From NCBI GenBank assembly GCA_947498125.1, contig CANMJH010000002.1, forward strand, positions 687,001 to 751,000: a stretch of DNA of 64,000 bases, in the 5' to 3' direction. The notes under the pieces were generated by a model. That model was not told the DNA's origin. It did not search any database and worked only from the letters and a program-made list of their open reading frames with translations. Positions 46,739 through 64,000 of this stretch are shown here, piece by piece. Origin of the DNA: an uncultured Nioella sp. Its GTDB lineage: Bacteria; Pseudomonadota; Alphaproteobacteria; Rhodobacterales; Rhodobacteraceae. A program made the position numbers and the translations under genes. Position 1 is the first letter of the stretch, and each line of letters begins with the position of its first letter.

Positions 46739-46743
46739 GGACG

Positions 46744-47223
46744 TCACCTTTCCCACGGGCTGCGAGGCAACGGCACGTTCAGCAATTCCAACAAAAACAA
46801 CCAAGCCAGTGCCGTCAGCAATAGTGACAGAAGAATGATCCTAGGGGGCGTGCCCGCGCGCAGAAAGATAAGGATCGCTGGGAAAACAACAGCCGTTGCC
46901 CAAAGGAACCCAATCTGGCTTTGCCCCCAGATATAAAACACAAGCGCGCCTGCAAAGATAATCGCTGAGGAATGCGACCAAAGTACTGTCGAGCGCGTCC
47001 GGAACCACGTGCGCAGATCCACGCCGGCATTGCCTTTCCTCAAGGCACGAAAAGCCAACGCCGCCGCCAAAACCCCAAGAATGGTGGCGCAAAGTGCGCC
47101 ATAGCCTTGGGTTTCAAATCGGCTGCCCAAGACATCCGAAAGGTAATAGAGACAATAGCCCAATACCAAGATCGGCGTGATCCCGAAGCGAGTTGGCTTT
47201 GTTTCTTTCACTGGCTGCATCAT
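46744..47223 (-). CDS. tctB: Tripartite tricarboxylate transporter small permease TctB
   Basis: 159 residues from MMQPVKETKPTRFGITPILV; GAGGCAGG precedes the tandem ATGs. Four hydrophobic segments including TPILVLGYCLYYLSDVLG, GYGALCATILGVLAAALAFR, and ILLSLLLTALAWLFLLELL. The weakly conserved small subunit of the TTT family; identity rests on its position between tctC and tctA. Confidence 0.85.
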   Translation of the reverse strand: MMQPVKETKPTRFGITPILVLGYCLYYLSDVLGSRFETQGYGALCATILGVLAAALAFRALRKGNAGVDLRTWFRTRSTVLWSHSSAIIFAGALVFYIWGQSQIGFLWATAVVFPAILIFLRAGTPPRIILLSLLLTALAWLFLLELLNVPLPRSPWER

Positions 47224-47275
47224 CCTGCCTCGCAGCGCCCTCCGGGCCCGGGTTTGGGTCGAAGGACGCCTTTGT

Positions 47276-48256: not shown

Positions 48257-48300
48257 TCTTTCCTCCCATTTTGTTTGCGGCGCCGTTTCCCGGCGCTTCA

Positions 48301-49877: not shown

Positions 49878-49892
49878 GCACATGATATACAG

Positions 49893-49906
49893 CTCATGCG
49901 CATGAG
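49893..49906 (-). promoter_or_regulatory. Palindromic operator before gntR-comA-tct operon
   Basis: CTCATGCGCATGAG is a perfect 14-bp palindrome. On the minus strand it sits between TTTACA (-35-like) and TATATC (-10-like) 18 bases apart, the classic place for a repressor site. The predicted transcript would begin at or just before the gntR ATG, so it may be leaderless. Confidence 0.65.
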
Positions 49907-50102
49907 TTGTAAAACAAATTCGACTAAGATTGTAGGCGAGGAGGGTGAATTGCTCTTGTTTGCTCGATTTGAAGGAGCGCGAGGTGGCAGAAAAATGCTT
50001 GTATTTCTTGCATTTATGACACTTGTTTTCGGAATTCGGACCCAGCACTCGGGTCAATTTTGTCAGCCGCTTTTTCTACTGGTTTCCAGACAAACCCGAC
50101 CG

Positions 50103-50129
50103 AAGGAGTGCAATCTCCGCTCCTTTTTT
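50103..50129 (+). other. AT-rich gap 49907-50392 with weak hairpin
   Basis: No gene is supported between the gntR promoter and the second gntR gene. AAGGAG-tgcaatctccg-CTCCTT followed by TTTT (50103-50129) is a weak terminator-like hairpin on the plus strand with no upstream gene. Base composition is more AT-rich than the flanks. Confidence 0.3.
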
Positions 50130-50392
50130 CGGATGAATTTCCCTTTTTGCACCTGATGGAATCGCGAAATTCGTGAAGCGATCTCACTTGGCAATTACGG
50201 CCCCTCGCAAAACTCAGTGGCGCAGCGTTGCGGCATGTCCAATGCGGGAAAACCCCGCGTTGGACAGAAATTTGTCAAAGAAACAATCTAACCGCAAAGG
50301 ACTCAATAGTTCGCGTTGAAACAGACCCTACTAAACGCGAGCGCCCCTTGAGAATTTGTAGTGTTGGACAGGCAGAAAAAAGCTGTGGTTTT

Positions 50393-51061
50393 TCATTCAG
50401 AAAGGTTCGCCATGGCTTCGAGAGTATGATCCAAACCAAGTCGGATATGGGTCTCAAGCACCGCTTTTGCCTTGGTGATGTCGCGCGCAAGGGCGGCATC
50501 GAACATGTCCTTATGTTCCTGAACGGCTTCTGCACCGCGATAGGTCAGGACCAGCATTTGATAGCGCAAGTATTTGTCAAAGATCGTGCCATGCAGCGAG
50601 AGAAGATTTTGCGAGTTACACGCTTGAATGAGGGCTTGATGGAACTCCCAGTCGTATCGTTTCCATTGCTCTTTATGAGACGTATCGCCGTTGAGCATCT
50701 TCTGTTCAATCAGGTGCAGTTTGTGATGGGCGGCGACAAGGTTGCCTTCCCAGTCTGCGTCTCCACAAGCTATCGAGGTTTCGAGGGCGGAGCATTCCAA
50801 CAGGATGCGCAACTCTGCTATTTCAGTGAGGTCTTCAGCGGAAACCGGGCGCACAAAGAAGCCGCGCTGCTCTGCGGCTGTCACGAATCCCTCGCTGGCC
50901 AGTCGGTTCAACGTTTCCCGTAAAGTCGACACACTGGCCGCATATCGGTCGCGTAGACCATCCAGTTTAAGCTTCGTCCCCGGAGAGAGTTCACCAAAGA
51001 TGATATCATGTTTGATGCGTTCATATGTGCTTGACCCAACGGTGGGTGCGGTTTGTGACAT
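50393..51061 (-). CDS. FadR/FCD-type GntR transcriptional regulator
   Basis: 222 residues. Winged helix STYERIKHDIIFGELSPGTK, LKLDGLRDRYAASVSTLRET, LNRLASEGFVTAAEQRGFFV, then an FCD ligand domain with metal-type residues in RYDWEFHQALIQ, VQEHKDMFDAALARD and LETHIRLGLDH. Such regulators sense small organic acids. It is divergent from the Gfo/Idh gene across a shared 156-base region holding one copy of a 7-3-7 inverted repeat that recurs at two more promoters of the cluster, so it is the likely regulator of the cluster and of itself. Confidence 0.92.
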   Translation of the reverse strand: MSQTAPTVGSSTYERIKHDIIFGELSPGTKLKLDGLRDRYAASVSTLRETLNRLASEGFVTAAEQRGFFVRPVSAEDLTEIAELRILLECSALETSIACGDADWEGNLVAAHHKLHLIEQKMLNGDTSHKEQWKRYDWEFHQALIQACNSQNLLSLHGTIFDKYLRYQMLVLTYRGAEAVQEHKDMFDAALARDITKAKAVLETHIRLGLDHTLEAMANLSE

Positions 51062-51146
51062 GCCAGACCTTACGGTTTTCGGTTTGCTCAGGGAATAACA
51101 CGATCATCCGATATTCCTCAATGGCAGATAAAATATGCGAAAATAA

Positions 51147-51163
51147 AAAATATCATATATTAT
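51147..51163. promoter_or_regulatory. Operator copy 1 (gntR/Gfo-Idh intergenic)
   Basis: AAAATAT-CAT-ATATTAT, matching the palindrome AAAATAT-N3-ATATTTT at 13 of 14 arm positions. It lies 86 bases from the gntR ATG and about 55 from the Gfo/Idh ATG. Confidence 0.72.
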
Positions 51164-51217
51164 TGCGAATCTTATTTACTCTGTTAGCTTGCCTCAAGAC
51201 ACAAAGAAGAGGGCCAA

Positions 51218-52273
51218 ATGGGGCAACCACTAAAATTGGCGGTCGTTGGGGCCGGACTTGTTGGGCAGCGGCATATTGCTGCCATTGGCCAGGTGCCCGG
51301 CGTAGAGCTGGCCGCCGTGGTTGAGCCGGGCCCGACAAATCAATCTGTTCCCGTTTTCTCGTCCATGGACGAGATGTTTGATGCGGCTGACGTCGATGGT
51401 GTCATCTTATCGACCCCCACTTTGCTGCATGTAGAGGGCGCATCGGCCTGTATCGAACGTGGTGTGCCGGTGCTTATCGAAAAGCCATTGGCGACGTCGG
51501 CCGATGACGCAAAAGAGGTGGTTGCGACGGCCCAAGCCATGGGCGTTCCAATCCTTGTGGGGCATCACCGCCGTCACAATCCAATTATTCAGAAAACCGC
51601 TGCCCTGATAAAAGAAGGTGCAATTGGGCAAGTGCGTGCGGCGCAAGTGACTTGTTGGTTCTATAAACCTGACGATTATTTCGACGTCGCTCCATGGCGC
51701 AAAAAGGCAGGTGCGGGACCTATTTCGGTCAATCTGGTGCATGACGTTGACCTAATGCGGCATTTCCTCGGGGAAGTCGTGACCGTACAGGCGCAAAGTG
51801 CGCCGTCCTTGCGCGGGTTCGAAAACGAAGACCTTGCCGCTGCAGTATTGCGGTTCGAAAGCGGGGCCGTGTGCACCATCACAGTCTCTGATAGCGTCGT
51901 GTCCCCATGGAGTTGGGAACTAACGTCGCGGGAATACCCCATTTACCCCGCGACAAGCGAATCCTGTTACTTGATCGGTGGTTCGCAAGGTGCGCTTAGC
52001 ATTCCTGACATGCGGCTTTGGCAACATGAGGGCGGTACAAGCTGGTGGAATCCAATCAAGGCGACGGCGATGCCCGTCAGTTCGTCCGACCCGCTCATCA
52101 ATCAGATCGCCCACTTTGAAGATGTGATCAGAGGGCGTTGCGAGCCTTTGGTGACTGGAGAAGAAGGCCTAAAGACCCTGCAGGTTGTGGAGGCAATTCA
52201 AACCTCAGCCCAATCAGAGACGCTGATTCATCTTGGTTTTGGATCGAAGGAAACGATTAACGCAGTGGGATAA
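51218..52273 (+). CDS. Gfo/Idh/MocA-family oxidoreductase
   Basis: 351 residues. N-terminal NAD(P) fold LKLAVVGAGLVGQRHIAAIG, then STPTLLHVEGASACIERGVP and the hallmark EKPLATSADDAKE. The C-terminal catalytic domain has GHHRRHNPIIQKTAALIKEG and VNLVHDVDLMRHFLGEV with the conserved Asp-His-type region. Members oxidise hydroxyl groups of sugars or cyclitols; the substrate is unknown. AGAGGG precedes the ATG. First gene of the plus-strand cluster, followed by its own gap with operator copy 2 before the TRAP genes. Confidence 0.9.
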   Translation: MGQPLKLAVVGAGLVGQRHIAAIGQVPGVELAAVVEPGPTNQSVPVFSSMDEMFDAADVDGVILSTPTLLHVEGASACIERGVPVLIEKPLATSADDAKEVVATAQAMGVPILVGHHRRHNPIIQKTAALIKEGAIGQVRAAQVTCWFYKPDDYFDVAPWRKKAGAGPISVNLVHDVDLMRHFLGEVVTVQAQSAPSLRGFENEDLAAAVLRFESGAVCTITVSDSVVSPWSWELTSREYPIYPATSESCYLIGGSQGALSIPDMRLWQHEGGTSWWNPIKATAMPVSSSDPLINQIAHFEDVIRGRCEPLVTGEEGLKTLQVVEAIQTSAQSETLIHLGFGSKETINAVG

Positions 52274-52288
52274 AATATCCTATATTTT
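52272..52288. promoter_or_regulatory. Operator copy 2 (TRAP operon)
   Basis: AAAATAT-CCT-ATATTTT, a perfect 7-3-7 inverted repeat, starting at the last bases of the Gfo/Idh gene and about 90 bases before dctP. Confidence 0.78.
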
Positions 52289-52376
52289 GTAAAATGTATT
52301 GCGAAGTGAGAAAAATGAGGCATTAATACGCCACACAATCTGCCCAGAGGGGCATGAAACGTCTGGGAGGACACAT

Positions 52377-53384
52377 ATGACACTGAATTTCACTCGCCGA
52401 GTCGCGATGGCGGCAATGGTCGCAGCAGGTACTATTGCTGCTGCCCCTGCCTTTGCTGATGGCCATGCAATCCAATTGCGCATGTCCACATCAGGTTCCG
52501 AAACCGACGCACGCTCTGTCGCGCTGGCAGAAGTCTTCGGCCCCGCTGTTTCGGGCTTTGCATCCTATGAGCCATCCTACAACGCTACGTTGTTCGACCA
52601 AGGTACCGAATTGGACGCGATCAGCCGTGGCAACCTTGAAATGTCCATCACCTCCGCTCAGGAACTGGCACAGTTCTTCCCTGAGTTTTCGATCTTTGCG
52701 ACAGGCTATGTGCATCAGGACGCCGCGCACCAAGTCCGCGTGTTTAATGATCCATTGATGGAACCATTCCTCGAAACTGTCGAAGAACAGTTGGGTGTGA
52801 GACTGCTGTCTGTGATGTATTTGGGCCGCCGCCATGTGAACCTGCGTCAGACCCGCGAAGAACTTGATGTTCAGACGCCTGCCGACCTTGCAGGGGTGAA
52901 CCTGCGGATGCCGGGCACGGATGCATGGCAGTTCTTGGGTGCCGCACTGGGTGCAGCGCCGACTCCAATGGCATTCACCGAAGTTTATACCGGCCTGTCG
53001 ACAGGTGCGATTGACGGTCAGGACAATCCGCTGCCCACAGTCGTGGACCGGAGATTTTACGAAGTGACCAACCAGATTGCTCTGACGTCCCACCTCGTTG
53101 ACTTGAACTACATTGCTATTTCTGCCGAAGTGTTCAATTCCATGGACGCGGCACAGCAGTTGGCCGTTCAGCGCGCGGCTGATGCAGCTGCATCCGTGGG
53201 TCGTCTGCGTCAGCTCGAGCTGGAGAACAACCTGGCGGCATTCCTCGAGGATAACGGCGTCGAGGTCTATACGCCTGATCTCGCGGCCTTCCGTGAGCAT
53301 GTGCAGGCCCAGTATGTAGGATCCGAGTTTGCAGATAGCTGGCCCGAGGGTGTGCTAGACGCAATCAACGCACTCGGTAACTAA
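52377..53384 (+). CDS. dctP: TRAP transporter substrate-binding protein DctP
   Basis: 335 residues from MTLNFTRRVAMAAMVAAGTI with a signal peptide ending PAFADGH; GGGAGGA lies before this ATG. DctP motifs include NLEMSITSAQELAQFFPEFS, LAGVNLRMPGTDAWQFLGAA with the Arg that usually binds the substrate carboxylate, and AIDGQDNPLPTVVDRRFYEV. It captures an organic acid in the periplasm. The nearby shikimate-type enzymes suggest a hydroaromatic acid as ligand. Confidence 0.93.
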   Translation: MTLNFTRRVAMAAMVAAGTIAAAPAFADGHAIQLRMSTSGSETDARSVALAEVFGPAVSGFASYEPSYNATLFDQGTELDAISRGNLEMSITSAQELAQFFPEFSIFATGYVHQDAAHQVRVFNDPLMEPFLETVEEQLGVRLLSVMYLGRRHVNLRQTREELDVQTPADLAGVNLRMPGTDAWQFLGAALGAAPTPMAFTEVYTGLSTGAIDGQDNPLPTVVDRRFYEVTNQIALTSHLVDLNYIAISAEVFNSMDAAQQLAVQRAADAAASVGRLRQLELENNLAAFLEDNGVEVYTPDLAAFREHVQAQYVGSEFADSWPEGVLDAINALGN

Positions 53385-53406
53385 GAAGAAAAAAGGGAGA
53401 TCTGCT

Positions 53407-54006
53407 ATGAAGACGCTATTCAAGTGGGTCTCCCGCATCACTGACGCAATCTCAGCCACTTTGTTGGCTGTGATTTTCTTTACGTTCTTATTGCAAATCG
53501 GGTCGCGCTATACGCCCCGGATCATCCGCAGTCTGGGTCTCGAAGAAACCTTTCCGACATTAGCTGCGGTCCAGCCCCTTGGATGGACGCTTGAGCTTAT
53601 CGCGATCCTGTGGGTTTGGGTGATCTTTTTCAGCTGCGCCTTTGTCGTGCGCGAATGGGATCATGTGAAATTCGACATCCTTTATCTTTCCGTATCGCGC
53701 CGCATGCGGACGATTTTCGCGATCATCTCTGCCATAGCGATTGTAGCAGGCATGCTTTACGCGCTTTTGCCAACGCTCGATTACATCGACTGGATGAAGA
53801 TCCGCAGAACATCGACGGTGCGCAATCCGTTCAGTGGGGACAAGATTCCGATGCGGACGATCTTCAGCGTCTATGGCGCATTCATGATCGTCGTCGCAGC
53901 CCGCTATGCCTGGCTGGCGATTGATACTTTCCGAAATGGCCCCCCCAAGACCGAACTTGAGATCGTGCTTGAAGCTGAAGCCGCCGCAGAGGAGGCCAAA
54001 TCATGA
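53407..54006 (+). CDS. dctQ: TRAP transporter small permease DctQ
   Basis: 199 residues with four membrane segments: ISATLLAVIFFTFLLQIGSR, LELIAILWVWVIFFSCAFVV, MRTIFAIISAIAIVAGMLYA and MRTIFSVYGAFMIVVAARYA. EWDHVKFDILY is a DctQ hallmark. GGGAG precedes the ATG. Its stop overlaps dctM by four bases. Confidence 0.92.
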   Translation: MKTLFKWVSRITDAISATLLAVIFFTFLLQIGSRYTPRIIRSLGLEETFPTLAAVQPLGWTLELIAILWVWVIFFSCAFVVREWDHVKFDILYLSVSRRMRTIFAIISAIAIVAGMLYALLPTLDYIDWMKIRRTSTVRNPFSGDKIPMRTIFSVYGAFMIVVAARYAWLAIDTFRNGPPKTELEIVLEAEAAAEEAKS

Positions 54007-55298
54007 GCTTCGAACTCTTATCCCTCCTCGTTACTCTGTTCTTTTTGGCAGGTATCGGAACGCCGATTGGCTATTCGATCTTGCTGGCCTCTGTAGTTTA
54101 TCTCGGCCTATCAGGTTTGGACGTGGCGCTTGCCGGCGAGAAGATCCTGCAAGGTTTCTACGGCAGCGCGATCCTGCTCGCCGTGCCTTTGTTCATCGTC
54201 GCCGCCAACATCATGAACGCGGGCAATATCACCGACCGTCTGCTGAATTTCTGTGTGGCAGTTGTTGGGCGTTTCAAAGGTGGCATGGGGCACGTTAACG
54301 TCGTTGCTTCGCTGATCTTCTCGGGTATGTCTGGCTCGGCTGTTGCCGACGCCGCAGGCATCGGAAAGGTCATCATTTCGATGATGACACGCAACGGCAA
54401 ATACAGTCGAGGATACGCAGCCGCGATTACCGCTGCCTCTGCCACCATTGGCCCAATCATCCCGCCGTCCATCCCAATGGTGCTCTACGCTTTAGTCTCC
54501 AACGCCTCTATCGGGGCATTGTTTCTGGCCGGTATCCTACCGGGCCTGATCATGGGTGTCGTGCTTATGGGGATGAACGGATACCTCGCCCATAAACGAG
54601 GGTTTGAAGTCGAAGACGCAGTTCCAATGCGCGAATTGCCCAAGGTAACCGCCAACGCGTTTCCAGCATTGCTGATGCCGGTCATCCTGCTTTATGGCAT
54701 CTATGGTGGCGTTACCACACCGACCGAAGCGGCAGCGGTTGCGGCCTTCTACGCCCTGTTGCTGGCCGCGCTGTTCTATCGGACGTTGTCCTTCAAGGCC
54801 CTCTACAACGTGTTCGTCGAATCCGCGCGGTCATCTGCCGCCGTTGGTATCGTGATCGGTGGTGCCTTCATCCTTAATTACATCGTAATCACCGAGCAGA
54901 TCCCACAAACCATTTCTGCGGCACTAGAAGGTGCCGAAATCAGCCCGCTGATGTTCCTGATCATGGTCAATGTTTTGATCTTGTTACTGGGCTGTGTGCT
55001 GGATGCCACGACCATCATTTTGGTGATTGTGCCGCTCTTCATCCCGACCTGTGAGGCTCTCGAGATTGATCTCGTTCATTTCGGAGTGCTCGTGGTCGTG
55101 AATTCAATGATCGGGTTGATAACCCCGCCTTATGGCATTCTTCTGTTTGTTATCAATGCGGTCACGGATATTCCGCTTCGCGAGATTATCGCGGAAATTT
55201 GGGGTTTCCTTGCCGTGTTAATCGTTGCCTTGATCGTGATGATGCTTTCGCCTGATCTGGTTCTCTGGCTGCCGCGCCTTCTTGGCTATCAGGGCTAA
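54003..55298 (+). CDS. dctM: TRAP transporter large permease DctM
   Basis: 431 residues, about twelve membrane segments. Motifs are GMSGSAVADAAGIGKVIISM, YAAAITAASATIGPIIPPSI and YGGVTTPTEAAAVAAFYALL, all typical of DctM. It imports the substrate with Na+ together with DctPQ. It overlaps the next gene by one base (TAATG), so the QuiC-like enzyme is translated with the transporter. Confidence 0.95.
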   Translation: MSFELLSLLVTLFFLAGIGTPIGYSILLASVVYLGLSGLDVALAGEKILQGFYGSAILLAVPLFIVAANIMNAGNITDRLLNFCVAVVGRFKGGMGHVNVVASLIFSGMSGSAVADAAGIGKVIISMMTRNGKYSRGYAAAITAASATIGPIIPPSIPMVLYALVSNASIGALFLAGILPGLIMGVVLMGMNGYLAHKRGFEVEDAVPMRELPKVTANAFPALLMPVILLYGIYGGVTTPTEAAAVAAFYALLLAALFYRTLSFKALYNVFVESARSSAAVGIVIGGAFILNYIVITEQIPQTISAALEGAEISPLMFLIMVNVLILLLGCVLDATTIILVIVPLFIPTCEALEIDLVHFGVLVVVNSMIGLITPPYGILLFVINAVTDIPLREIIAEIWGFLAVLIVALIVMMLSPDLVLWLPRLLGYQG

Positions 55299-57040
55299 TG
55301 CTTACGATCCCGACACATGTTGTCCTGGGGCCATTGGCAGACAAACTGCGCGCCATCGGGGCCGTCGGGTTTGAAGCGATCGACCTTAGTCTGGCCGATG
55401 TGGCCCAGTTTGATGGACCGCTCGACGACATCGCCCGCCTTTGTACTGAAGCGGGCCTTAAGATCGCGTCTTTGGGGCCAGTTTCATCAGGGGCTACGGC
55501 CGCTATGATCGCCGCTAAGATCAAAATGGCCCAAACGTTGGGTACGGATTTAGTCCTACTTGAGGTTGATGGGCTAGCGCCCGATGACCTGCCGGATTTG
55601 AAAGGCGTCAGGCTCGCGCTTCGCCCGTCGAGAGAGTCCGAAACGACAGTAAAGGCTTTCCTGGACGCAAAAGGCGATCCCGCCATTGGCTGGGCGCTGA
55701 ACGCCTATCATGCCCTTTGTGACGGTTCCCGTCCGGCGCGTTTACGCGATTTGGACGGTGCTAGTGTGTTTCACGCTGCCCTCTGGGACGGTCCAAATTC
55801 GCCACTTTTGCCGGGCCAAGGCACGCTGAACCTTGGTGGCTTTGCCCGCGTTTTAGCGCGAGCCGGTTATAGGGGGCCATGGTCCGTTGGGGCCGCCCCC
55901 GAGGGCCCCAACACATTGCGCAATGCATATAGATCTCTGGTCACGACGTTGTCTGACGCGGCGCAAACCGAGCCGTTGTTGCGAGGTGTTACGCCTGAGC
56001 TGCCCCCCAAAGTCGCCGCAAGAGGGTTCGAGTTTATCGAATTTGCCGTCGATCACGAAGGTGCAGAGGAGTTGGAGGCCGTTCTTTCGTCAATGGCGTT
56101 CCGCCGCGAACGAAGGCACCTATCCAAACAAGTCGCGCTTTGGCGACAGGGCGCGGTGAATATCGTCGTCAATCAAGACGGGGTGGGACACGCGGCGCAA
56201 GCCGTTCAGGACCACGGGCCTTGCGTTTGTGACATGGGGCTACGCGTAGAAAATGCTGCTGAAACGGTCGCCCGCGCCAAGGCATTGGGCACGCAGGATT
56301 TCTCGCAGTCCGTTGGGCTAGGAGAGCTGGATATCCCCGCCATCCGCGGCGTCGGGGGAAATGTCATTCATTTCATCGACGAACAATCCGACCTTCACCG
56401 CGTTTGGGATATCGAATTTGAACCTGTAACGCGCACAAAGGCCACGCCACCGGCAGGATTGCGACGGATCGACCATGTGGCGCAGAGCATGCGCTATAAT
56501 GAAATGCAGAGCTGGCTGCTGTATTATCTCACCACGTTTGAGATGACGAAATCCCCAATCGTTAATGTCGCCGACCCATCTGGCATCATACGTTCTCAGG
56601 CGATTGAAACGCCTGAAGGGGACTTGCGGTTAAATCTGAACGGGGCGACGGATGCCGAAACGCTTGCAGGATCATTCGTGTCCGGCCGGCCCGGTGCGGG
56701 CGTGCAGCACATTGCCTTTCAAACCGACGATATATTTGAAACCTCAGCGCAGTTGAAGGCGTCTGGTTTCGTTCGGCTACCTGTTCCGCAAAACTACTAT
56801 GCCGACACGCAGGCCACCTTTGAGTTGAGCGATGCCATGACCGCAGATCTGCAAGATCACGATATCCTTTACGACCAAGACGAACACGGTGCCTATTTCC
56901 AGCTGTACGGCCAAGCTTTGTTTGCCGGGTTTTTCTTTGAGATCGTTGAGCGCAAAGGCCGTTATGCAGGCTATGGCGCGCGCAACGCGTCTGTCCGGCT
57001 GGCATCACAAACACGCTCCCGTTTGAAGACTGCCTCATGA
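55298..57040 (+). CDS. QuiC-like TIM barrel/HPPD-domain fusion
   Basis: 580 residues. A xylose-isomerase-like TIM barrel (residues 1-235) is fused to a 4-hydroxyphenylpyruvate-dioxygenase-type domain (about 240-560), as in QuiC1 3-dehydroshikimate dehydratases that form protocatechuate. The C-terminal domain keeps a His/His/Glu metal triad: His393 (IDHVAQ), His471 (GVQHIAF) and Glu548 (FFFEIVER). The barrel looks degenerate: Asn135 stands where Asp is expected, Gly198 replaces the last Glu, and the first Glu region reads RLALRPSRES. So barrel catalysis may be lost and the role may lie in the dioxygenase-type half. Its stop overlaps the next gene (ATGA). Confidence 0.8.
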   Translation: MLTIPTHVVLGPLADKLRAIGAVGFEAIDLSLADVAQFDGPLDDIARLCTEAGLKIASLGPVSSGATAAMIAAKIKMAQTLGTDLVLLEVDGLAPDDLPDLKGVRLALRPSRESETTVKAFLDAKGDPAIGWALNAYHALCDGSRPARLRDLDGASVFHAALWDGPNSPLLPGQGTLNLGGFARVLARAGYRGPWSVGAAPEGPNTLRNAYRSLVTTLSDAAQTEPLLRGVTPELPPKVAARGFEFIEFAVDHEGAEELEAVLSSMAFRRERRHLSKQVALWRQGAVNIVVNQDGVGHAAQAVQDHGPCVCDMGLRVENAAETVARAKALGTQDFSQSVGLGELDIPAIRGVGGNVIHFIDEQSDLHRVWDIEFEPVTRTKATPPAGLRRIDHVAQSMRYNEMQSWLLYYLTTFEMTKSPIVNVADPSGIIRSQAIETPEGDLRLNLNGATDAETLAGSFVSGRPGAGVQHIAFQTDDIFETSAQLKASGFVRLPVPQNYYADTQATFELSDAMTADLQDHDILYDQDEHGAYFQLYGQALFAGFFFEIVERKGRYAGYGARNASVRLASQTRSRLKTAS

Positions 57041-57873
57041 GGGCCGCTCTGATCGGAAAAGGGATTGCCGCCTCCCTTACGCCTAGCATGCATAAGGCGG
57101 CAGGAGCTGCGTTGGGTATAGACTACGTCTATGATCGCTATGATTTGGCTACGGATGCTTGCGCCAACTGGTCTTTGGATCAGGCCATGGATACGGCGCA
57201 GGCTGCGGGGTGCCGCGGGGTTAATGTGACATATCCGTTCAAACAGGAAGTCATGGCGCTGCTTGATGAAATGTCGCCGCAGGCCCGCGATATCGGAGCG
57301 GTAAACACCGTGATCTTCGACGGTCAGAAACGCACTGGCCATAACACGGACTATCTTGGATTTCGCGACGGCTTCGCGCGGGACATGAAGGCTAAGCCAC
57401 GCGACGCGGTATTGCTTTTAGGGGCTGGAGGCGCAGGCTGCGCGGTCGGATTGGCGCTGATCGATCTTGGCACCTCGACAGTTTGGATTCATGACCAAAG
57501 CCAAAAGGCCGCATTGGCGTTGGCCGCTCGTTTGACGGCCCTACGCCCGCAGGTGCGATGCGCAGTCTGGCAATCACAGGGCGCGGTGGATGGCATTCTC
57601 AACGCAACACCCATGGGCATGGCCAATCACCCCGGCCAAGCAATCTCGCTGAATGACGTTGTGGTGCGCCGCTGGGTTGGCGACATCGTGTACTTCCCGC
57701 TGCAAACCGCCCTTTTGCGGGATGCCACCCGGCGTGGGTTGCATGTGATGACGGGCAAAGGCATGGCCGTCGGTCAGGCAGCGGAGACCTTCAAGTTGTT
57801 CACGGGCCGCGACCCAGATTACGCCCTCATGGCGCAGCATTTTCATAACATAACCCAAGGTGTACCTTCATGA
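57037..57873 (+). CDS. NAD-type shikimate/quinate dehydrogenase
   Basis: 278 residues. Substrate motifs SLTPSMHKAAG (SLTP as in QsuD/YdiB-type catabolic enzymes; AroE has SLSP), NVTYPFKQE with the catalytic Lys, NTDYLGF with the catalytic Asp, NATPMGM and VGQAAETFKLFTG. The Rossmann loop is GAGGAGCAVG and the strand after it ends IHDQSQK, with Asp153 in place of the NADPH-binding NRT, so NAD is preferred. This is a catabolic shikimate or quinate dehydrogenase rather than a biosynthetic AroE. It overlaps both neighbours by four bases. Confidence 0.85.
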   Translation: MRAALIGKGIAASLTPSMHKAAGAALGIDYVYDRYDLATDACANWSLDQAMDTAQAAGCRGVNVTYPFKQEVMALLDEMSPQARDIGAVNTVIFDGQKRTGHNTDYLGFRDGFARDMKAKPRDAVLLLGAGGAGCAVGLALIDLGTSTVWIHDQSQKAALALAARLTALRPQVRCAVWQSQGAVDGILNATPMGMANHPGQAISLNDVVVRRWVGDIVYFPLQTALLRDATRRGLHVMTGKGMAVGQAAETFKLFTGRDPDYALMAQHFHNITQGVPS

Positions 57874-58664
57874 GCGACGACGCAGACGCAATTCGCGCGT
57901 GGTGGCGCACGTCGATCATTGACATGGAGCCGGGCAAGATTGCCTTTCGGGGGCATCCAATCGAGGACCTGATCGGCAACGTATCGTTTCCACAGATGAT
58001 CTGGTTGATGACAGCGGGGCGGCTGCCATCGGATGCAGAATCTGCGTTGCTCGAAGCAGCGCTGGTTGCAGGCGTCGATCACGGCCCACAAGCGCCTTCC
58101 ATCGCTGCTGCGCGGATGACAGCAACCTGCGGGGTCGGCCTGAACAACGCGATTGCCAATGGCGTGAACATGCTTGGCGATGTGCATGGCGGTGCGGGCG
58201 AGCAATGTGCTGATCTGTATTATGACATCAATGCCCGAATGGAAGACGGCGCACCATTGGAGGATTCTGTGCAATCGGGCCTTGATGTCTGGCGCGCGGA
58301 AAACGGTAAGATCGTTAGCGGCTTTGGGCATCGCTTTCACAAGCCTGTTGACCCTCGCGCACCGCGCCTAATGGCAATGGTACGTGAGGCCGCGAAAGCC
58401 GGAACGGTGTCTGGTCGTTATGCGGATATAGGCGAAGCGGTTCAGGCCAACCTTAGCGCGCGCAAGCCGCTTGCGATGAATATCGACGGGGCAACCGCTG
58501 TGATCTTCTGCGAGTTGGGCTTTCCCGCCCCCCTGTCCCGAGGACTGTTTTGCCTGTCTCGTTCTGTTGGCATCTTGTCCCATGCATGGGAGCAAATACA
58601 ACAAGGCGGGCGCAATAAGGGTCCAATGCCACCGGCCTATCTCCCTAAATATGATCAAATATAA
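57870..58664 (+). CDS. Citryl-CoA lyase / citrate synthase-like protein
   Basis: 264 residues, shorter than citrate synthase (about 430) and of the size of stand-alone citryl-CoA-lyase-like proteins. The three catalytic positions of the citrate synthase fold are visible: His in GDVHGGAGEQ, His in GFGHRFHKPVDPRAPRL, and Asp in MNIDGATAVIFCELGFP. It would cleave or form a citryl-CoA-like thioester. The true substrate is unknown; placed with an acylating aldehyde dehydrogenase, a CoA thioester step fits. Overlaps the dehydrogenase gene by four bases; a promoter gap follows. Confidence 0.72.
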   Translation: MSDDADAIRAWWRTSIIDMEPGKIAFRGHPIEDLIGNVSFPQMIWLMTAGRLPSDAESALLEAALVAGVDHGPQAPSIAAARMTATCGVGLNNAIANGVNMLGDVHGGAGEQCADLYYDINARMEDGAPLEDSVQSGLDVWRAENGKIVSGFGHRFHKPVDPRAPRLMAMVREAAKAGTVSGRYADIGEAVQANLSARKPLAMNIDGATAVIFCELGFPAPLSRGLFCLSRSVGILSHAWEQIQQGGRNKGPMPPAYLPKYDQI

Positions 58665-58679
58665 AATATCATAGATTTT
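58663..58679. promoter_or_regulatory. Operator copy 3 (isomerase-hpaI operon)
   Basis: AAAATAT-CAT-AGATTTT, 13 of 14 arm positions of the same palindrome, at the end of the citryl-CoA-lyase-like gene and 52 bases before the next ATG. Confidence 0.75.
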
Positions 58680-58731
58680 GGAATACGTATTATGATACTG
58701 CTAAGCGCAGACATCATGAGGTGATTCCGAA

Positions 58732-59628
58732 ATGCCAGACGAGACCGGTACGCCGCTTTATTCCCTGGCGCATCTTACCCTCATCAATGCGACTGCGCCC
58801 GAACTGATCTACATCGCCGCCCGCGCCGGGTATGACGCTGTTTCGCCACGCTTTATCAAGATGAATGTGCCCGGTGAATTTCGCGAGAGCCCGATCGACA
58901 AGGCGATGGTGTCTGCCACCAAGACGGCCCTGCAAACCACTGGCCTCAAGGTGCTTGATGTCGAATTGGCCCGCATCACCGAGGATTGTGATCCGCGCAG
59001 TTTCGAACCGGCCTGCGAGTTAGGCGGAGAGTTGGGCGCGACCCGTATGATTATGTCCGCGTGGACGCCCACACGCGATGACCGAAATTTCATTGTCGAT
59101 TGCTATGCGGAAACCTGTGAAATCGCGGCCCCTTTTGGCCTGTCCGTCGACCTTGAATTCCCAAGCTTCAGCCGCCTGCGTACGCTTGATGAGACGCTGG
59201 ATATTGTCCGTGCGGCTGATCAGCCAAACGGTGGCATCCTTGTCGACACGCTATATCTACACCTCAGCCGTGTGGACCTTGCCGAGCTGTTACACGTCCC
59301 CGGAGATCTACTGAATTTCCTTCACATATCAGATGCCTTACCCGGTATCGCGGACACACGCGAAGGCATGATCCAACTGGCGCGCGACGCGCGGCTGTAC
59401 CCCGGCGAGGGGTGTATTGATTTTGCTGGCATCATCGAACGAATGCCGCCCGTAGATTACTCCATTGAGCTACCCAACCAATCCCGGATCACTGAACTGG
59501 GTTTTGAAGAACATGCGCGGCGGTGTCTGCAAAATGCCAAACGCACGTTTGGCCATGTGTGCAGCCAGCGCCGTACTCCCACTATACTTCCAAATGAAAG
59601 CACGACAGATGGCCAAAGAGCTTACTGA
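58732..59628 (+). CDS. Stand-alone xylose-isomerase-like TIM-barrel enzyme
   Basis: 298 residues. Four metal-ligand positions are in place and spaced as in AsbF/QuiC/IolE-type barrels: Glu142 (VDLEFPS), Asp172 (VDTLYLHL), His198 (LHISDAL) and Glu246 (SIELPN), with PGEGCIDF between. It may be the active 3-dehydroshikimate-type dehydratase or a cyclitol dehydratase of the cluster, replacing the decayed barrel of the QuiC-like fusion. GAGGTGA precedes the ATG. First gene of a four-gene unit; its end overlaps the aldehyde dehydrogenase gene by 20 bases. Confidence 0.8.
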   Translation: MPDETGTPLYSLAHLTLINATAPELIYIAARAGYDAVSPRFIKMNVPGEFRESPIDKAMVSATKTALQTTGLKVLDVELARITEDCDPRSFEPACELGGELGATRMIMSAWTPTRDDRNFIVDCYAETCEIAAPFGLSVDLEFPSFSRLRTLDETLDIVRAADQPNGGILVDTLYLHLSRVDLAELLHVPGDLLNFLHISDALPGIADTREGMIQLARDARLYPGEGCIDFAGIIERMPPVDYSIELPNQSRITELGFEEHARRCLQNAKRTFGHVCSQRRTPTILPNESTTDGQRAY

Positions 59629-61018
59629 ACAAGACCGCCAATTGGCAGCGGACATGATCGCCCGCGCGCGCGCTGCGATGGCCGCGATTGAAGATTGGTC
59701 ACAGGCCGATTTAGACCGGTTGAGCCAAGCCATTGCGTGGTTCGCTGGCAATGAAAAGACATTCACCCGACTGGCCGAACAGGGTGTCGACGAAAGCGGA
59801 ATTGGCGACCGCGCCGGACGTCCTGCGAAGCGGTTCAAAATCCAGATGGTCTTGCGTGATGTGCTGAGGACGCCTTCTACAGGTGTGGTCGAGGTGGATG
59901 AGGCCAAGGGATTGGTCAAATACGCCAAGCCCGCAGGCGTGATCGCCTCGCTTATCCCGATGACAAACCCTGCGATGACACCTCCGGTGACTGGCGTGTC
60001 CTCGGCCAACGCGCGAAACGCTGTGATCTTTTCGCCGCATCCGCGCACGGCCGGAACAACCTATGAAATGACCGAAGTGATGCGACAGGCCTGCGTTGCC
60101 GTCGGTGCGCCAGCAGATCTGTTCCAAGCTGTGCGACACCCTTCGATCCCTTTAACACAACATTTGATGGAGGAATGCGATCTGACGCTGGCCACGGGCG
60201 GAAAGCCGATGGTCAAAGCTGCCTATTCTTCGGGTCGTCCAGCCTATGGTGTCGGGGCGGGGAACTCCTCAATTGTGATTGATGAAACCGCTGATCTGGA
60301 CATAGCCGCACAAAATACGCGAATTTCAAAAACTTCTGATTTTGGGTCCGGGTGTTCGGCGGATGGCAATATCATCATCCAGAAATCGATCTACGCCGAC
60401 ATGGTCGCCGCACTTGAAGCTGAGGGCGGCTATCTGTGCAACGCTGACGAAAAGGCGTTGCTGGAGGCCGCAATGTGGGACGAAAAGGGCAACCGCACAT
60501 TTCCAACAATCGCCTGCAAGCCCCAGCAAACCGCAGATGTGGCTGGGTTTTCAATCCCTGAGGACCGCAAATTCCTGATGGTCGAAAACCAAGGACAGAT
60601 CGGGCCAGAGCACAAGTTTTCAAAAGAAAAGTTGACGACCGTTATGGCGCTTTATCATTTTGAGACATTTGACGACGCGCTTGACACTGTTCGCTCGATT
60701 TACGCAACCGGCGGCATTGGGCATTCATGCGGCATCTACAGCCATAATGACGATCATATCGACGCCTTGGCGCGGGTTGCCCCCGTCAGCCGCATGATGG
60801 TTCGTCAGCCGCAATCCAAGGCCAACGCGGGGTCATGGACCAACGGGATGCCGATGACGTCCAGTCTTGGCTGCGGGATTTGGGGCGGCAACATAACCAA
60901 TGAAAACGTCACAATGAAACACATGATGAATTATACTTGGGTTGCCCGCCCAATAGCTGAGGATCGCCCTTCGGAAGAAGAGCTTTTCGGTGAATTTTTT
61001 GGACAGGAGATCGCATGA
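59609..61018 (+). CDS. CoA-acylating aldehyde dehydrogenase (SauS-like)
   Basis: 469 residues from MAKELTEQDRQLAADMIARA; other in-frame ATGs lie at 59594 and further upstream inside the preceding gene. The acylating-type ALDH fold shows LIPMTNPAMTPPVTGVSSAN, VIFSPHPRTAGTTYEMTEVM, and the nucleophile Cys region KTSDFGSGCSADGNIII. It resembles SauS sulfoacetaldehyde dehydrogenase and other CoA-dependent ALDHs that make acyl-CoA from a short aldehyde. The aldehyde probably comes from the ThDP enzyme encoded next, with which it overlaps (ATGATG). Confidence 0.82.
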   Translation: MAKELTEQDRQLAADMIARARAAMAAIEDWSQADLDRLSQAIAWFAGNEKTFTRLAEQGVDESGIGDRAGRPAKRFKIQMVLRDVLRTPSTGVVEVDEAKGLVKYAKPAGVIASLIPMTNPAMTPPVTGVSSANARNAVIFSPHPRTAGTTYEMTEVMRQACVAVGAPADLFQAVRHPSIPLTQHLMEECDLTLATGGKPMVKAAYSSGRPAYGVGAGNSSIVIDETADLDIAAQNTRISKTSDFGSGCSADGNIIIQKSIYADMVAALEAEGGYLCNADEKALLEAAMWDEKGNRTFPTIACKPQQTADVAGFSIPEDRKFLMVENQGQIGPEHKFSKEKLTTVMALYHFETFDDALDTVRSIYATGGIGHSCGIYSHNDDHIDALARVAPVSRMMVRQPQSKANAGSWTNGMPMTSSLGCGIWGGNITNENVTMKHMMNYTWVARPIAEDRPSEEELFGEFFGQEIA

Positions 61019-62811
61019 TGGACGGGACAAATGTAGACAACAAAACCGTCGCTGAGCACATTGTTGATTTTCTAGGGCGGCGTGAGGTTGAGCATGTTTT
61101 CGGCCTTTGCGGGCACACAAATATCGCCGTATTGGCCGCTTTGGCTGACAGCCCGATTGATTTTATCACCGTGCGGCATGAGCAAATCGCCAGCCATGCG
61201 GCAGATGCCTATGCCCGCGTAACGGGCCGCGCATCCGTGGTGTTGTCGCACCTCTCTCCGGGCTTGACGAATTGCGCGACGGGGGTGGCGAATGCTGCAC
61301 TAGATTGTATTCCGATGGTCGTGATCGCAGGCGACATTCCTACCCATTACTACGGAAAGCACCCCCACCAAGAGGTGAACCTGCACGCAGATGCGGCCCA
61401 GTGGGAGATTTACCGCCCCTTCGTGAAACGCGCCTGGCGTGTGGATCGCGCTGACCTCATGGCAGAAATCCTGGAAAAGGCGTTCCATTTGGCCGAAAGT
61501 GGCCAGCCGGGCCCCGTCTTGGTCAACGTTCCGATGGATATATTCAGTGAGGTGATCCCGTCCGACAGCTTTGACCGGATCGCCTCCAACACCAAACATT
61601 TGGTCAAACCGTCCATAGATGATGAAACAGCCCGCCGGATTGTAAATGGTTTGGCTACGGCAGAGGCGCCTGTTGCCTATGTAGGCGGCGGGATTTTGTT
61701 GGCAAAGGCGAGCGCTGAGCTGGAAGAATTTGCAACTCATATGGGTCTGCCAATAGCCCACTCTCTCATGGGCAAGGGCGCGGTGCGTGATGATCACCCG
61801 CTGGTCATGGGCATGACAGGGTTTTGGGGCACGGAACTGGTAAACCAAACCTGCCTGAACGCGGACTTGGTATTTGCTGTCGGGACACGCTTTAAAGAGG
61901 CCGATTGTTCCAGCTGGTATCCCGGCTACACATTCAACATCGGGGCGAAGGGCAACGACACCAAGGTCATTCACATCGACATCGAACCCCAAGAGATTGG
62001 GCGTAACTATCCGACCGAGATCGGTGTTGTGGCGGATGCGAAAGCCGCGCTTCGCGTGCTGACCCGTGTGGCGAAAGAGATGTATCCAGATGGGTTTGAC
62101 CGCACTGAAAAGAAAGCCGAGATCGCGGCGTTTCGTACGTCGTTTAAGGCGTCCAACGTCGAGATGCAGACTTCAACCGCCTTCCCGATGATGCCGGAAC
62201 GCATCTTGGCGGACACCCGCGCAGCACTGCCCGATGATGCCATCATCACAACGGATGTGGGGTGGAACAAAAACGGCGTCGGTCAGCAATTTGATATCCT
62301 GACGCCGGGCTCGATCCTGACGCCGGGCGGCTTTGCAACGATGGGTTTCGGCCCGCCTGCGGCCATTGGCGCGAAACTAGCGGCGCCGGATCGCGTGGTG
62401 CTATCGCTTGTGGGTGACGGCGGCTTTGGTCAAAATCCATCAATGCTGGCAACAGCCGTTGAGCTTAATCTCGGGATTATCTGGCTTGTCATGAACAACA
62501 ACGCCTTCGGTACTATCGCGGGCCTACAAAAGGCGCATTACGGGCTGACCTATGGCACAACTTTTCCGGGCAGCGCCCAAGCGCCGACCAACGGGCCGGG
62601 CTACGCCGAGATCGCGCGCGCATATGGCGCCGAGGGTTTGCGCATCTCGTCTGCGGATGAGCTGTTGCCTGCATTGCAGGCGGCCATTGCCAGCGGCAAA
62701 CCAACCGTGTTGGATGTTCCTATGATCAACAACCCAACGCCAACGACAGGGCATTGGAATATCCTCGACATCTATTCACCCGACAAAGACGTCAGCCACG
62801 TATCGACCTAA
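61015..62811 (+). CDS. ThDP-dependent enzyme, acetolactate-synthase fold, GHxN motif
   Basis: 598 residues. PYR domain with catalytic Glu in RHEQIASHAADAYARVTGR, middle domain, and a PP domain with the Mg-diphosphate motif GDGGFGQNPSMLATA ... MNNNAFGTI. The N-terminal VFGLCGHTNIAVLAAL resembles the FGxxGHGNVA segment of IolD (trihydroxycyclohexanedione hydrolase) more than ordinary ALS, whose loop differs. It does not look like Xsc sulfoacetaldehyde acetyltransferase. It could decarboxylate or hydrolytically cleave a 2-oxo or 1,2-dione compound to give the aldehyde used by the preceding enzyme. GGAGATCGC precedes ATGATG. Confidence 0.8.
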   Translation: MMDGTNVDNKTVAEHIVDFLGRREVEHVFGLCGHTNIAVLAALADSPIDFITVRHEQIASHAADAYARVTGRASVVLSHLSPGLTNCATGVANAALDCIPMVVIAGDIPTHYYGKHPHQEVNLHADAAQWEIYRPFVKRAWRVDRADLMAEILEKAFHLAESGQPGPVLVNVPMDIFSEVIPSDSFDRIASNTKHLVKPSIDDETARRIVNGLATAEAPVAYVGGGILLAKASAELEEFATHMGLPIAHSLMGKGAVRDDHPLVMGMTGFWGTELVNQTCLNADLVFAVGTRFKEADCSSWYPGYTFNIGAKGNDTKVIHIDIEPQEIGRNYPTEIGVVADAKAALRVLTRVAKEMYPDGFDRTEKKAEIAAFRTSFKASNVEMQTSTAFPMMPERILADTRAALPDDAIITTDVGWNKNGVGQQFDILTPGSILTPGGFATMGFGPPAAIGAKLAAPDRVVLSLVGDGGFGQNPSMLATAVELNLGIIWLVMNNNAFGTIAGLQKAHYGLTYGTTFPGSAQAPTNGPGYAEIARAYGAEGLRISSADELLPALQAAIASGKPTVLDVPMINNPTPTTGHWNILDIYSPDKDVSHVST

Positions 62812-62823
62812 AGAAAGCCGCAG

Positions 62824-63588
62824 ATGGACAATCCCAAAAACAAATTCAAAGCCGCCATGGCGGCCGGCCAGCGGCAAATTGGCGTGTGGAATACAATCGG
62901 CGGAAACACGGTGCCGGAAATGTTGGGCGGTGCCGGGTATGATTGGGTTTTGATAGATTGCGAACACTCGGCAATTGAAACAGTCGAGGTATTGCCCGCG
63001 TTGCAAGCAATCGGCCAATACCCCGACACTTCGGCCGCTGTGCGGCTAGCGGCAAACGATCCGACCTTATTCAAACGAGTGCTCGACATGGGCGCGCAAA
63101 CCTTAATGGTTCCTTATGTGCAAACCTCGGAAGAGGCCGCAGCGGCGGTTCACGCAACGCGCTATGGCCCAAGCGGGATGCGTGGAATGGCGGGCATGAC
63201 CCGCGCCGCGCGCTATGGAAAAATTGACGATTATTACAATAGAGCCGAGGACGAACTGTGTCTCATCTTGCAAGTGGAAACCCTCGAAGGGTTAAGCAAT
63301 CTGGACGCAATTGCAAAAATCGAAGGTGTCGATGCTGTGTTCATAGGACCCACCGACCTTAGCGCAAGTATGGGGCTGCGGGGACAGGTGACTCATCCGG
63401 ATGTGGACAAAGCGGTCAGTGATGCCATTACACGGTTGGTCGAAATCGGTGTTCCTGTCGGTGTCATGGCGCTCGATCCGGATGTTGCTGACCGCTATCT
63501 GACTTTAGGGGCATCATTCGTTGCGGTCGCGGTGGATCTGGTGCTGCTAGAGCAAGCCGTTTCCGCTATCCGTGTCAGGTTCGCCTAA
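62824..63588 (+). CDS. HpcH/HpaI-family aldolase
   Basis: 254 residues. Catalytic residues of the family are visible: His in DCEHSAIETV, Arg in AVRLAANDP, metal Glu in LQVETLEG and metal Asp in FIGPTDLSASMG. These class II aldolases reversibly split 4-hydroxy-2-oxo acids to pyruvate plus an aldehyde. It would give the last C-C cleavage of the pathway. Last gene of the unit, 12 bases after the ThDP enzyme. No terminator is evident after it. Confidence 0.92.
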   Translation: MDNPKNKFKAAMAAGQRQIGVWNTIGGNTVPEMLGGAGYDWVLIDCEHSAIETVEVLPALQAIGQYPDTSAAVRLAANDPTLFKRVLDMGAQTLMVPYVQTSEEAAAAVHATRYGPSGMRGMAGMTRAARYGKIDDYYNRAEDELCLILQVETLEGLSNLDAIAKIEGVDAVFIGPTDLSASMGLRGQVTHPDVDKAVSDAITRLVEIGVPVGVMALDPDVADRYLTLGASFVAVAVDLVLLEQAVSAIRVRFA

Positions 63589-64000
63589 CGGTGTTGACGA
63601 GCTTTGGCGCTTAGCCTCTTTTCTGCCGATATTCTCTAGATTTTTAGGGCTTGGGCACGTTGTAGAGCGGTCGCATTCATACCTTCGAGGTTACCCGGTA
63701 TTTCATCTCTTGATGCAAACTGTGGGCGAGATAGGCGTCGATCTAATCTGCGACAGGGTCGCCTGACGGTATGGTCCGGCAGAGAAAACAGAAAGCTGGG
63801 TAGCTAGCTGACATGTTCATCACAGCCGATGAGCGGACTGATGGCGTTACGGCTGGAATCAGTTCTCGCTTGCCTGATCGGAACGGCGCACCCGGATCCC
63901 AACACTCGGAAAACCGAATTTCCACAAACTCGTACCGCCGGGATCGCAAACAGGGACTGCTGCCCGCAATTGGCCCCGGTTATGTTCAGAATCGCGTCGC
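63589..64000. other. Gap at the right edge without a recognisable gene
   Basis: About 410 bases with only short frames (up to about 70 codons) that resemble nothing I know. No terminator or repeat stands out. It may hold the promoter of a gene beyond the window. Confidence 0.3.

Follow-up and report, generated by a model that had tools for sequence, protein, structure and literature searches.

A conserved gene cluster of Rhodobacteraceae and a possible non-aromatic ring-opening route for quinate-type acids

Introduction

What does a bacterium degrade with a gene cluster that joins enzymes of the shikimate type to enzymes of the inositol type? Such a cluster of twelve genes occupies positions 50393–63588 of a 64,000-nucleotide stretch, here called the window, of an uncultured Nioella sp. 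from the Rhodobacteraceae (assembly GCA_947498125.1, contig CANMJH010000002.1, positions 687,001–751,000). Its candidate products are a GntR-type regulator, an oxidoreductase of the Gfo/Idh/MocA family (Gfo/Idh), the subunits DctP, DctQ and DctM of a tripartite ATP-independent periplasmic (TRAP) transporter, a fusion of a QuiC-like triosephosphate isomerase (TIM) barrel with a half resembling 4-hydroxyphenylpyruvate dioxygenase (HPPD), a shikimate/quinate dehydrogenase (AroE), a protein resembling citryl-coenzyme A (CoA) lyase (CCL), a second TIM-barrel protein (TIM298), an aldehyde dehydrogenase (ALDH), a thiamine diphosphate (ThDP) enzyme and an aldolase (HpaI). A first-pass annotation had proposed that these proteins import, oxidise, dehydrate and open or decarboxylate a hydroaromatic or cyclitol-like acid, convert it to an acyl-CoA and split the rest to pyruvate, an interpretation that is partly supported by our analysis and needs revision.

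Quinate and related acids abound in plants. Their use by bacteria runs, according to the textbooks, via protocatechuate in an oxygen-demanding aromatic route. Fermenting bacteria using quinate without oxygen have also been described, and we know of no genes for this fermentation. Here we describe the cluster as a possible regulon devoted to the breakdown of a quinate-type hydroaromatic acid without aromatic intermediate, a reading to which we give somewhat less than an even chance.

Results and Discussion

All twelve genes are genuine open reading frames, with the regulator gene lying divergently on the minus strand and the other eleven, several of them overlapping, on the plus strand. Pfam and NCBIfam searches were run on ten of the twelve proteins, DctQ and DctM being judged by position and conservation only, and all ten fall into the superfamilies named before, so that the gene content and location given in the first-pass annotation hold. 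In order to describe its conservation we used CCL as the only query against a genome collection, took the 80 top-ranking of 241 loci as a sample and defined Gfo, DctP, DctM, CCL, TIM298, ALDH and ThDP as seven core genes. The full core is present in 57 of the 80 loci. The genes are thus widely syntenic and not rarely found together, and the conserved synteny looked for in a ten-gene set holds for the core, with AroE present in 25 and HpaI in nine of the 57 full loci. Only two full loci, from a Rhodospirillaceae assembly (L042) and a SAR324 assembly (L070), are without the QuiC-like fusion, and a long fusion-like frame is found elsewhere in the genome of the former. We also searched for the ThDP enzyme at E 1e-150 in 295 genomes of the same family and found 18 carriers including the source genome itself. 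TIM298 and ALDH adjoin the ThDP gene in all 17 other carriers and CCL is located in the region in 14 of them, at least 11 of the 17 being common to this and the CCL-seeded sample. A phylum-wide draw at the same threshold gave the ThDP enzyme in five of 398 genomes, the source genome included, all of them from the same family. Because of these carrier numbers we regard the cluster as a patchy trait of the Rhodobacteraceae with rarer relatives outside. Strains of Thalassobium and Ruegeria are among its cultured carriers. Its gene arrangement is far beyond chance, and its steady module consists of TIM298, ALDH and the ThDP enzyme together with CCL.

Eight further loci carry part of the TIM298/ALDH/ThDP group in an incomplete core. 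Seven of these lie on stretches of 8.6–15.6 kb, and one of the eight, L075, is a full-length stretch without TRAP genes. At L083 there are pieces of the ThDP gene without TIM298 or ALDH on a contig of 8.6 kb. The remaining 15 loci show none of the three genes nearby: L012, L013 and L015 are halves of split clusters, L028, L031, L074 and L076 represent contigs too short or cut, and L014, L017, L019, L022, L057, L067, L078 and L079 have CCL in other surroundings, so that membership in the CCL family does not by itself point to this pathway. The stray CCL of L014 (9819–10846) is preceded by a fragment of the QuiC-like fusion and followed by an operator-like site in a genome that also has a full cluster, and it looks like a broken second copy. 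The source genome, too, encodes a second CCL, 62% identical, which lies beside a CoA-transferase and, read by eye, an IclR-like regulator (L086:8154-11108) and probably belongs to another unit for CoA-ester cleavage. Another ring-opening pathway is possible for plasmid pUSP3 of Aminobacter sp. MSH1 (L100), where two ThDP enzymes of GHGN type, a Gfo/Idh protein, a TIM barrel, an aldehyde dehydrogenase, a cupin and an IclR regulator occur together. An extra module of two more Gfo/Idh genes and a 225-residue protein is present in 34 of the 57 full loci, as counted on that protein. The protein of about 225 residues lies between the two extra Gfo/Idh genes (L023:11965-12660, L042:12029-12703) and is found in 42 of all 80 loci; it gave no match in Pfam or NCBIfam, and its spacing of His and Glu reads cupin-like by eye.

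That these genes form one regulon, as had been suggested, is borne out by a shared predicted operator upstream of Gfo and TIM298. The training set of a 24-base motif consisted solely of the gaps between regulator and Gfo genes of 63 loci, the window included. Its best site in all 64 kb is located at 51144 and its second-best at 58660, between CCL and TIM298. In 47 of 64 loci the 200 bp preceding TIM298 contain a site scoring above 13. The background of these loci has three sites of this strength in 1,376,553 positions, which corresponds to 0.0004 expected per 200-bp window, and a shuffled control has one in 3200 windows. As the loci are related, those bearing the operator are not independent events. 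Three genomes in which CCL and the group TIM298-ALDH-ThDP-HpaI lie on different contigs (G679, which is the same as G099; G680; and G681) all have a single strong site some 70 bp ahead of TIM298, which is the sole site above 11 in the 16–20 kb scanned per genome; since the letters are identical in all three, these sites may go back to one event. Ten genomes were also scanned with a 19-base form of the motif, as many as three mismatches being tolerated. Thirteen sites deviate from it by one base at most, and every one of these is located at the cluster, as checked against genes and contig ranges. A third, weaker site (three mismatches or fewer) lies 1124–1203 bp from operator 1 in the Gfo/DctP gap of eight of the ten genomes (52272 in the window). 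The true pattern gave five to 14 matches per genome and the reversed pattern zero to three, and the source genome has no place outside the cluster with fewer than three mismatches to the 19-base motif. L119, L120 and the Azoarcus stretch described below have no motif site (best scores below 0), as expected if they use other regulators. One predicted regulon spanning both halves of the cluster is thereby supported, and synteny and predicted operators speak very strongly for a conserved catabolic unit controlled by a single regulator.

The ending of the proposed route is read from three enzymes. For the counts of invariant residues given here, sequences of 40% identity or less or outside 85–125% of the length of the window protein were dropped. 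CCL reaches 433 bits against the citryl-CoA lyase family PRK06224.1-1 (cut-off 261), its nearest solved chain is the citryl-CoA lyase 6hxp, and H106, H154 and D206, whose catalytic roles we assume from the citrate synthase fold, are present in all 81 sequences of a set that includes the paralog L002 from the source genome. CCL probably cleaves a CoA ester of the citryl-CoA kind, the substrate being putatively homocitryl-CoA. The top solved relatives of ALDH are CoA-acylating enzymes, namely acetylating acetaldehyde and succinate-semialdehyde dehydrogenases, and its catalytic cysteine C249 is conserved in 61 of 61 sequences; the closest NCBIfam equivalog, SauS, an acylating sulfoacetaldehyde dehydrogenase, remains with 426 bits below its cut-off of 600, and the cluster itself has no sulfonate genes. 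The ThDP enzyme shows the motif GHTN in all 60 sequences and retains the cofactor glutamate E56. This motif aligns with GHGN of IolD from the source genome and is absent from three other ThDP enzymes found there with the IolD profile; GHxN we take to be a mark of IolD. Upstream of these two, TIM298 has IolI and QuiC as closest solved relatives and a metal site (E142, D172, H198, E246) that is invariant in 62 sequences. The Gfo/Idh protein stays below every NCBIfam cut-off, the best match being inositol 2-dehydrogenase (126 of 355 bits).

A hint on the chemistry comes from two genomes (G508 and G411) which have no match to CCL at E 1e-30. In both of them the TIM298-ALDH-ThDP module sits with a QuiC-like fusion, and directly before TIM298 lies a gene resembling 3-hydroxy-3-methylglutaryl-CoA (HMG-CoA) lyase that scores above the family cut-off (291 and 311 of 246 bits) and stands in for CCL. 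Citryl-CoA lyases and HMG-CoA lyases alike act on CoA esters that carry a tertiary alcohol at a distance of two carbons, and set acetyl-CoA free. We take the CCL step as the logical end of the route and as the key link overlooked in the first-pass annotation.

Quinate contains CH2-C(OH)(COOH)-CH2, the core of citrate, and a balanced route can be written for it. The TRAP transporter would import quinate or a close relative, and Gfo/Idh, plus AroE where present, would oxidise a ring hydroxyl to the ketone, for example to 3-dehydroquinate. TIM298 might then remove the C5 hydroxyl and the C4 hydrogen, as a 3-dehydroshikimate dehydratase does in forming protocatechuate, but as ring carbon C1 is saturated here, a 1,2-dione, 1-hydroxy-3,4-dioxocyclohexane-1-carboxylate, would result instead of a benzene ring. 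IolD and cyclohexane-1,2-dione hydrolase (CDH) open ring 1,2-diones. The ThDP enzyme would likewise open the dione between C3 and C4 to homocitrate semialdehyde, which bears the aldehyde beside the citrate-like carbon, ALDH would form the CoA ester homocitryl-CoA, and CCL would cut this to acetyl-CoA and 2-oxoglutarate. Overall C7H12O6 would lose 2H and lose and regain water to give C2 plus C5, with no carbon lost and no oxygen needed. Import, oxidation, dehydration or isomerisation, ring opening and acyl-CoA formation thus remain a plausible order, as previously suggested. We think that the route probably ends in a C–C cleavage by the ThDP enzyme, formation of a CoA ester and a retro-Claisen cut. 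A quinate-type hydroaromatic acid is the favoured substrate, with a chance that we put slightly below even. An oxygen-independent, non-aromatic pathway taking such acids fully to central metabolites in Rhodobacterales and a SAR324 genome, with variants in Azoarcus and actinomycetes, is put forward only tentatively.

The proposed route would be new in joining an inositol-type plan to a citrate-type ending. With myo-inositol catabolism (IolG, IolE, IolD, IolB) it would have in common the oxidation by Gfo/Idh, the dehydration or isomerisation by a TIM barrel and the dione opening by a ThDP enzyme with GHxN, in what we presume to be the same order. In contrast, none of the ten scanned proteins passes a cut-off for the inositol pathway, the source genome has a separate IolD, and inositol catabolism ends in a kinase and an aldolase and not in a CoA ester and a citryl-CoA-type lyase. 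The opening of a saturated ring dione by a ThDP enzyme is also found in the CDH route of Azoarcus, which differs in substrate and oxidation step. The match of the ThDP enzyme to CDH amounts to 161 bits, H34 probably falls on His28 of CDH by alignment offset, and CDH was not among the 60 matches listed for a 113-residue ThDP fragment. His28, with Asn484 an active-site residue of CDH, is named in PMC12247030. A quinate/shikimate dehydrogenase and a two-domain QuiC-like protein are shared with quinate and shikimate catabolism via protocatechuate (qui, qsu), but the cluster differs from it by lost dehydratase residues, the lack of protocatechuate genes and the proposed non-aromatic opening. With the citryl-CoA lyase 6hxp, presumably from Hydrogenobacter, CCL shares the fold family and the catalytic His/His/Asp; unlike that system the cluster has no citryl-CoA synthetase, and the CoA ester would come from the acylating ALDH. 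Among the open-access titles listed, none dealt with a non-aromatic quinate pathway or with this cluster, and no paper joining quinate, a TRAP transporter and Rhodobacterales was found there.

The QuiC-like fusion is indeed a two-domain protein with an intact HPPD half, its iron ligands H393, H471 and E548 being conserved in 65 of 65 sequences, but it probably does not act as an ordinary 3-dehydroshikimate dehydratase, since active-site residues are gone. Aligned to 5hmq, Glu134 of the TIM half corresponds to a gap or Arg, Asp165 to Asn135, Gln191 to Ala161 and Glu239 to Gly198, with His168 being kept; the four replaced residues presumably bind the metal. All four are listed for active dehydratases in PMC7442255. 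Within the 65 sequences of the fusion family, the window included, Asn replaces Asp165 in 63 and Ala or Gly replaces Glu239 in 59, while Gln191 is kept in 51. Against the QuiC equivalog of NCBIfam the fusion reaches 309 of 1200 bits and does not pass. AroE has the quinate/shikimate dehydrogenase 3jyo as nearest solved chain and passes the subfamily PRK12549 (302.6 of 235 bits), but not the equivalog for quinate/shikimate dehydrogenase NF010631 (203.6 of 515). HpaI belongs to the superfamily PF03328 and remains below the cut-off for 4-hydroxy-2-oxoheptanedioate aldolase, TIGR02311 (288.4 of 368.8 bits); with its presence in nine of 57 full loci, the splitting of the remainder to pyruvate, once ascribed to it, is not general.

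More distant relatives link the ThDP enzyme and CCL to hydroaromatic acids, as both lie beside a shikimate/quinate dehydrogenase there. On a plasmid of Azoarcus KH32C we found in one run an HPPD-like protein whose second His is replaced by Asp, a TIM barrel, a CoA-transferase, CCL (65%), the ThDP enzyme (66%), a shikimate dehydrogenase and a 3-dehydroquinate dehydratase. The TIM barrel scores as QuiC and keeps Glu, Asp and Gln, with Asp as fourth residue and His168 changed to Gln. Pairs of DUF1302 and DUF1329 proteins with transporters of the MMPL or RND type flank this cluster on both sides (L097:569-7222 and L128:1-5581). In Nonomuraea the neighbourhood comprises a ThDP enzyme (51%), CCL, a CoA-transferase, AroE, a QuiC with intact residues, an ATP-binding cassette (ABC) transporter and a protein of the pyrroloquinoline quinone type, and in Streptomyces a ThDP enzyme (51%), CCL, a CoA-transferase, AroE and a branched-chain-type ABC transporter. 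ThDP, CCL and AroE genes lie within 18 kb in the former and 12 kb in the latter, and the ThDP enzymes of all three organisms have GHTN. The minimal SAR324 cluster L070 encodes the five enzymes of the proposed route and neither fusion nor AroE or HpaI in its 20.8-kb stretch; the gap before CCL holds a frame on the opposite strand which reads like a sugar kinase.

Several findings weigh against the proposed quinate route. The ThDP enzyme reaches only 236.8 of the 715 bits of the IolD family TIGR04377, for which IolD of the source genome scores 907, its nearest solved chains are acetolactate synthases, and in a tree with long reference branches and support values of 80–88 it groups with the CCL-linked enzymes of Azoarcus and actinomycetes beside acetolactate synthase and not with IolD. 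Membership in the IolD family was rejected; the IolD-like GHxN named in the first-pass annotation is present as GHTN. AroE is absent from 32 of the 57 full loci, and two genomes without AroE in the cluster (G516 and G679) have a single AroE-like gene each, located far from it, which means that 3-dehydroquinate need not be an intermediate. The first oxidation must then be carried out by Gfo/Idh, possibly at another carbon, and this might separate the route from the synthesis of aromatic amino acids. The HPPD half with its intact iron site has no role in the route, HpaI is not explained by acetyl-CoA and 2-oxoglutarate as end products, and the dehydratase residues are intact in the fusion or QuiC relatives of L119 and Nonomuraea, which in Nonomuraea fits a protocatechuate branch. 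As stated before, no protocatechuate dioxygenase is encoded in the cluster, but the source genome has three matches to the intradiol family elsewhere and can probably use protocatechuate by another route. No site above 13 is found upstream of TIM298 in 17 of the 64 loci, with a lowest score of -1.9. Finally, the clusters from Azoarcus and actinomycetes contain a CoA-transferase and no acylating ALDH in the 25–30 kb read; the transferase would supply the CoA ester and the fifth step would differ there.

These findings leave room for other readings. The substrate could be a sugar-like or cyclitol-like acid such as 3-deoxy-D-manno-octulosonic acid (KDO), another ulosonic acid or an inositol-type acid, with AroE and the fusion borrowed for other substrates, a reading we consider unlikely but credible. 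DctP, DctQ and DctM together make up a TRAP transporter, and DctP, for which a structure predicted from 33 sequences gave a mean predicted local distance difference test score of 85.5, is 74–75% identical to the solved protein 4pf6 of Roseobacter denitrificans, its next structural neighbours being sialic-acid binders. We presume that 4pf6 was crystallised with KDO, which would count against quinate, and found no paper on its ligand in the literature. The ring form of KDO resembles quinate, however, and the ligand of 4pf6 would therefore not decide between the two. Gfo/Idh enzymes are typical of cyclitols and sugars, and AroE is optional, which would also fit such an acid. In contrast, the Azoarcus and actinomycete clusters keep a shikimate dehydrogenase next to ThDP enzyme and CCL, in Azoarcus together with 3-dehydroquinate dehydratase, and a lyase for a 3-hydroxy-3-carboxyacyl-CoA fits the quinate skeleton, a carbon of this kind not being simply obtained from open-chain KDO. 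A quinate-type acid could also be used without dehydration, if two ring oxidations gave a dione keeping the C5 hydroxyl and TIM298 were an isomerase like IolI, which it also resembles. The products would be acetyl-CoA and 4-hydroxy-2-oxoglutarate, the latter being split by HpaI or an aldolase of the cell to pyruvate and glyoxylate. This would give HpaI a role and make use of several Gfo/Idh enzymes, as found in the extra module; with HpaI missing from 48 of the 57 full loci and only one Gfo/Idh in the stretch read of the minimal SAR324 cluster, we regard it as improbable.

An aromatic route would make good use of the same three enzymes at its end: protocatechuate would be converted by a dioxygenase to 4-carboxy-4-hydroxy-2-oxoadipate and by ThDP-dependent decarboxylation to citrate semialdehyde, from which ALDH and CCL would form citryl-CoA and then acetyl-CoA and oxaloacetate. 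LigC, the dehydrogenase of the protocatechuate 4,5-pathway, is a Gfo/Idh protein as well, and the iron site in the HPPD half and the dehydratase residues kept in L119 and Nonomuraea would also be in line with it. We searched ten genomes for ring-cleaving enzymes of the LigB (PF02900) and intradiol (PF00775) families only. LigB-type dioxygenases are missing from the source genome, and both types are missing from G516 and G411, which hold the module. G508 lacks intradiol enzymes and gave a single LigB-family match (90 bits). The fusion of the window has lost its dehydratase residues, and the HPPD half is weakened as a candidate ring cleaver because the SAR324 genome with the cluster, whose completeness is not given, has no HPPD-like gene at E 1e-5. 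For QsuB, a related two-domain enzyme, PMC7442255 describes the HPPD half as inactive on protocatechuate. With the dehydratase residues lost and both dioxygenase families absent from some genomes bearing the module, we rejected the protocatechuate route as the principal explanation and hold it to be highly improbable.

The positions of all genes and predicted operators are given in Table 1. Just beyond the window, frames of at least 150 residues, read by eye without family search, do not obviously continue the operon, the longer ones lying on the opposite strand, and Rfam gave no match reaching threshold in 46000–64000. An adjoining divergent set at 45215–50057 comprises a transporter that reads by eye as TctA/TctB/TctC-like (TctA without NCBIfam match), a TIM barrel similar to phosphosulfolactate synthase (TIGR03849, 108 of 280 bits) and a GntR regulator of the PhnF/HutC type; it contains no operator site scoring above 9.

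Table 1: Genes and predicted operators of the cluster, with positions in the window.
Feature	Position	Strand	Basis
FCD-domain GntR regulator	50393..51061	-	PF07729 and PF00392; in 64/80 loci
Operator 1 (predicted), regulator/Gfo gap, TAAAAAATATCATATATTATTGCG	51144..51167	+	motif score 40.2; zero mismatches to short pattern
Gfo/Idh/MocA oxidoreductase, probable first dehydrogenase	51218..52273	+	PF01408, PF22725; in 65/80 loci
Operator 3 (predicted, weaker), Gfo/DctP gap	52272..52290	+	3 mismatches
DctP, TRAP solute-binding protein	52377..53384	+	PF03480
DctQ, TRAP small membrane subunit	53407..54006	+	position, conservation in 65/80 loci
DctM, TRAP large membrane subunit	54003..55298	+	position, conservation in 65/80 loci
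QuiC-like fusion, degenerate TIM half and HPPD-like half	55298..57040	+	H393, H471, E548 intact
Shikimate/quinate dehydrogenase (AroE), optional	57037..57873	+	above PRK12549 subfamily cut-off
Citryl-CoA-lyase-like retro-Claisen enzyme (CCL)	57870..58664	+	433 bits, cut-off 261
Operator 2 (predicted), upstream of TIM298	58660..58683	+	motif score 16.3, second-best in window
TIM298, IolI/QuiC-like metal-dependent isomerase or dehydratase	58732..59628	+	PF01261
CoA-acylating-type aldehyde dehydrogenase (ALDH)	59609..61018	+	solved relatives acylating; C249
ThDP enzyme	61015..62811	+	GHTN at 33-36, H79, catalytic E56
HpaI/GarL-type aldolase, optional	62824..63588	+	PF03328

Conclusion

If the proposed route is true, it would represent a new way to use hydroaromatic acids, with a ring opening like that of inositol catabolism followed by a cut like that of citrate. 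A gene set with a balanced non-aromatic route and a predicted operator would make the use of quinate without oxygen directly testable. It would also assign a function to a marine transporter with a solved close relative, to part of the CCL family and to a group of possibly ring-opening ThDP enzymes.

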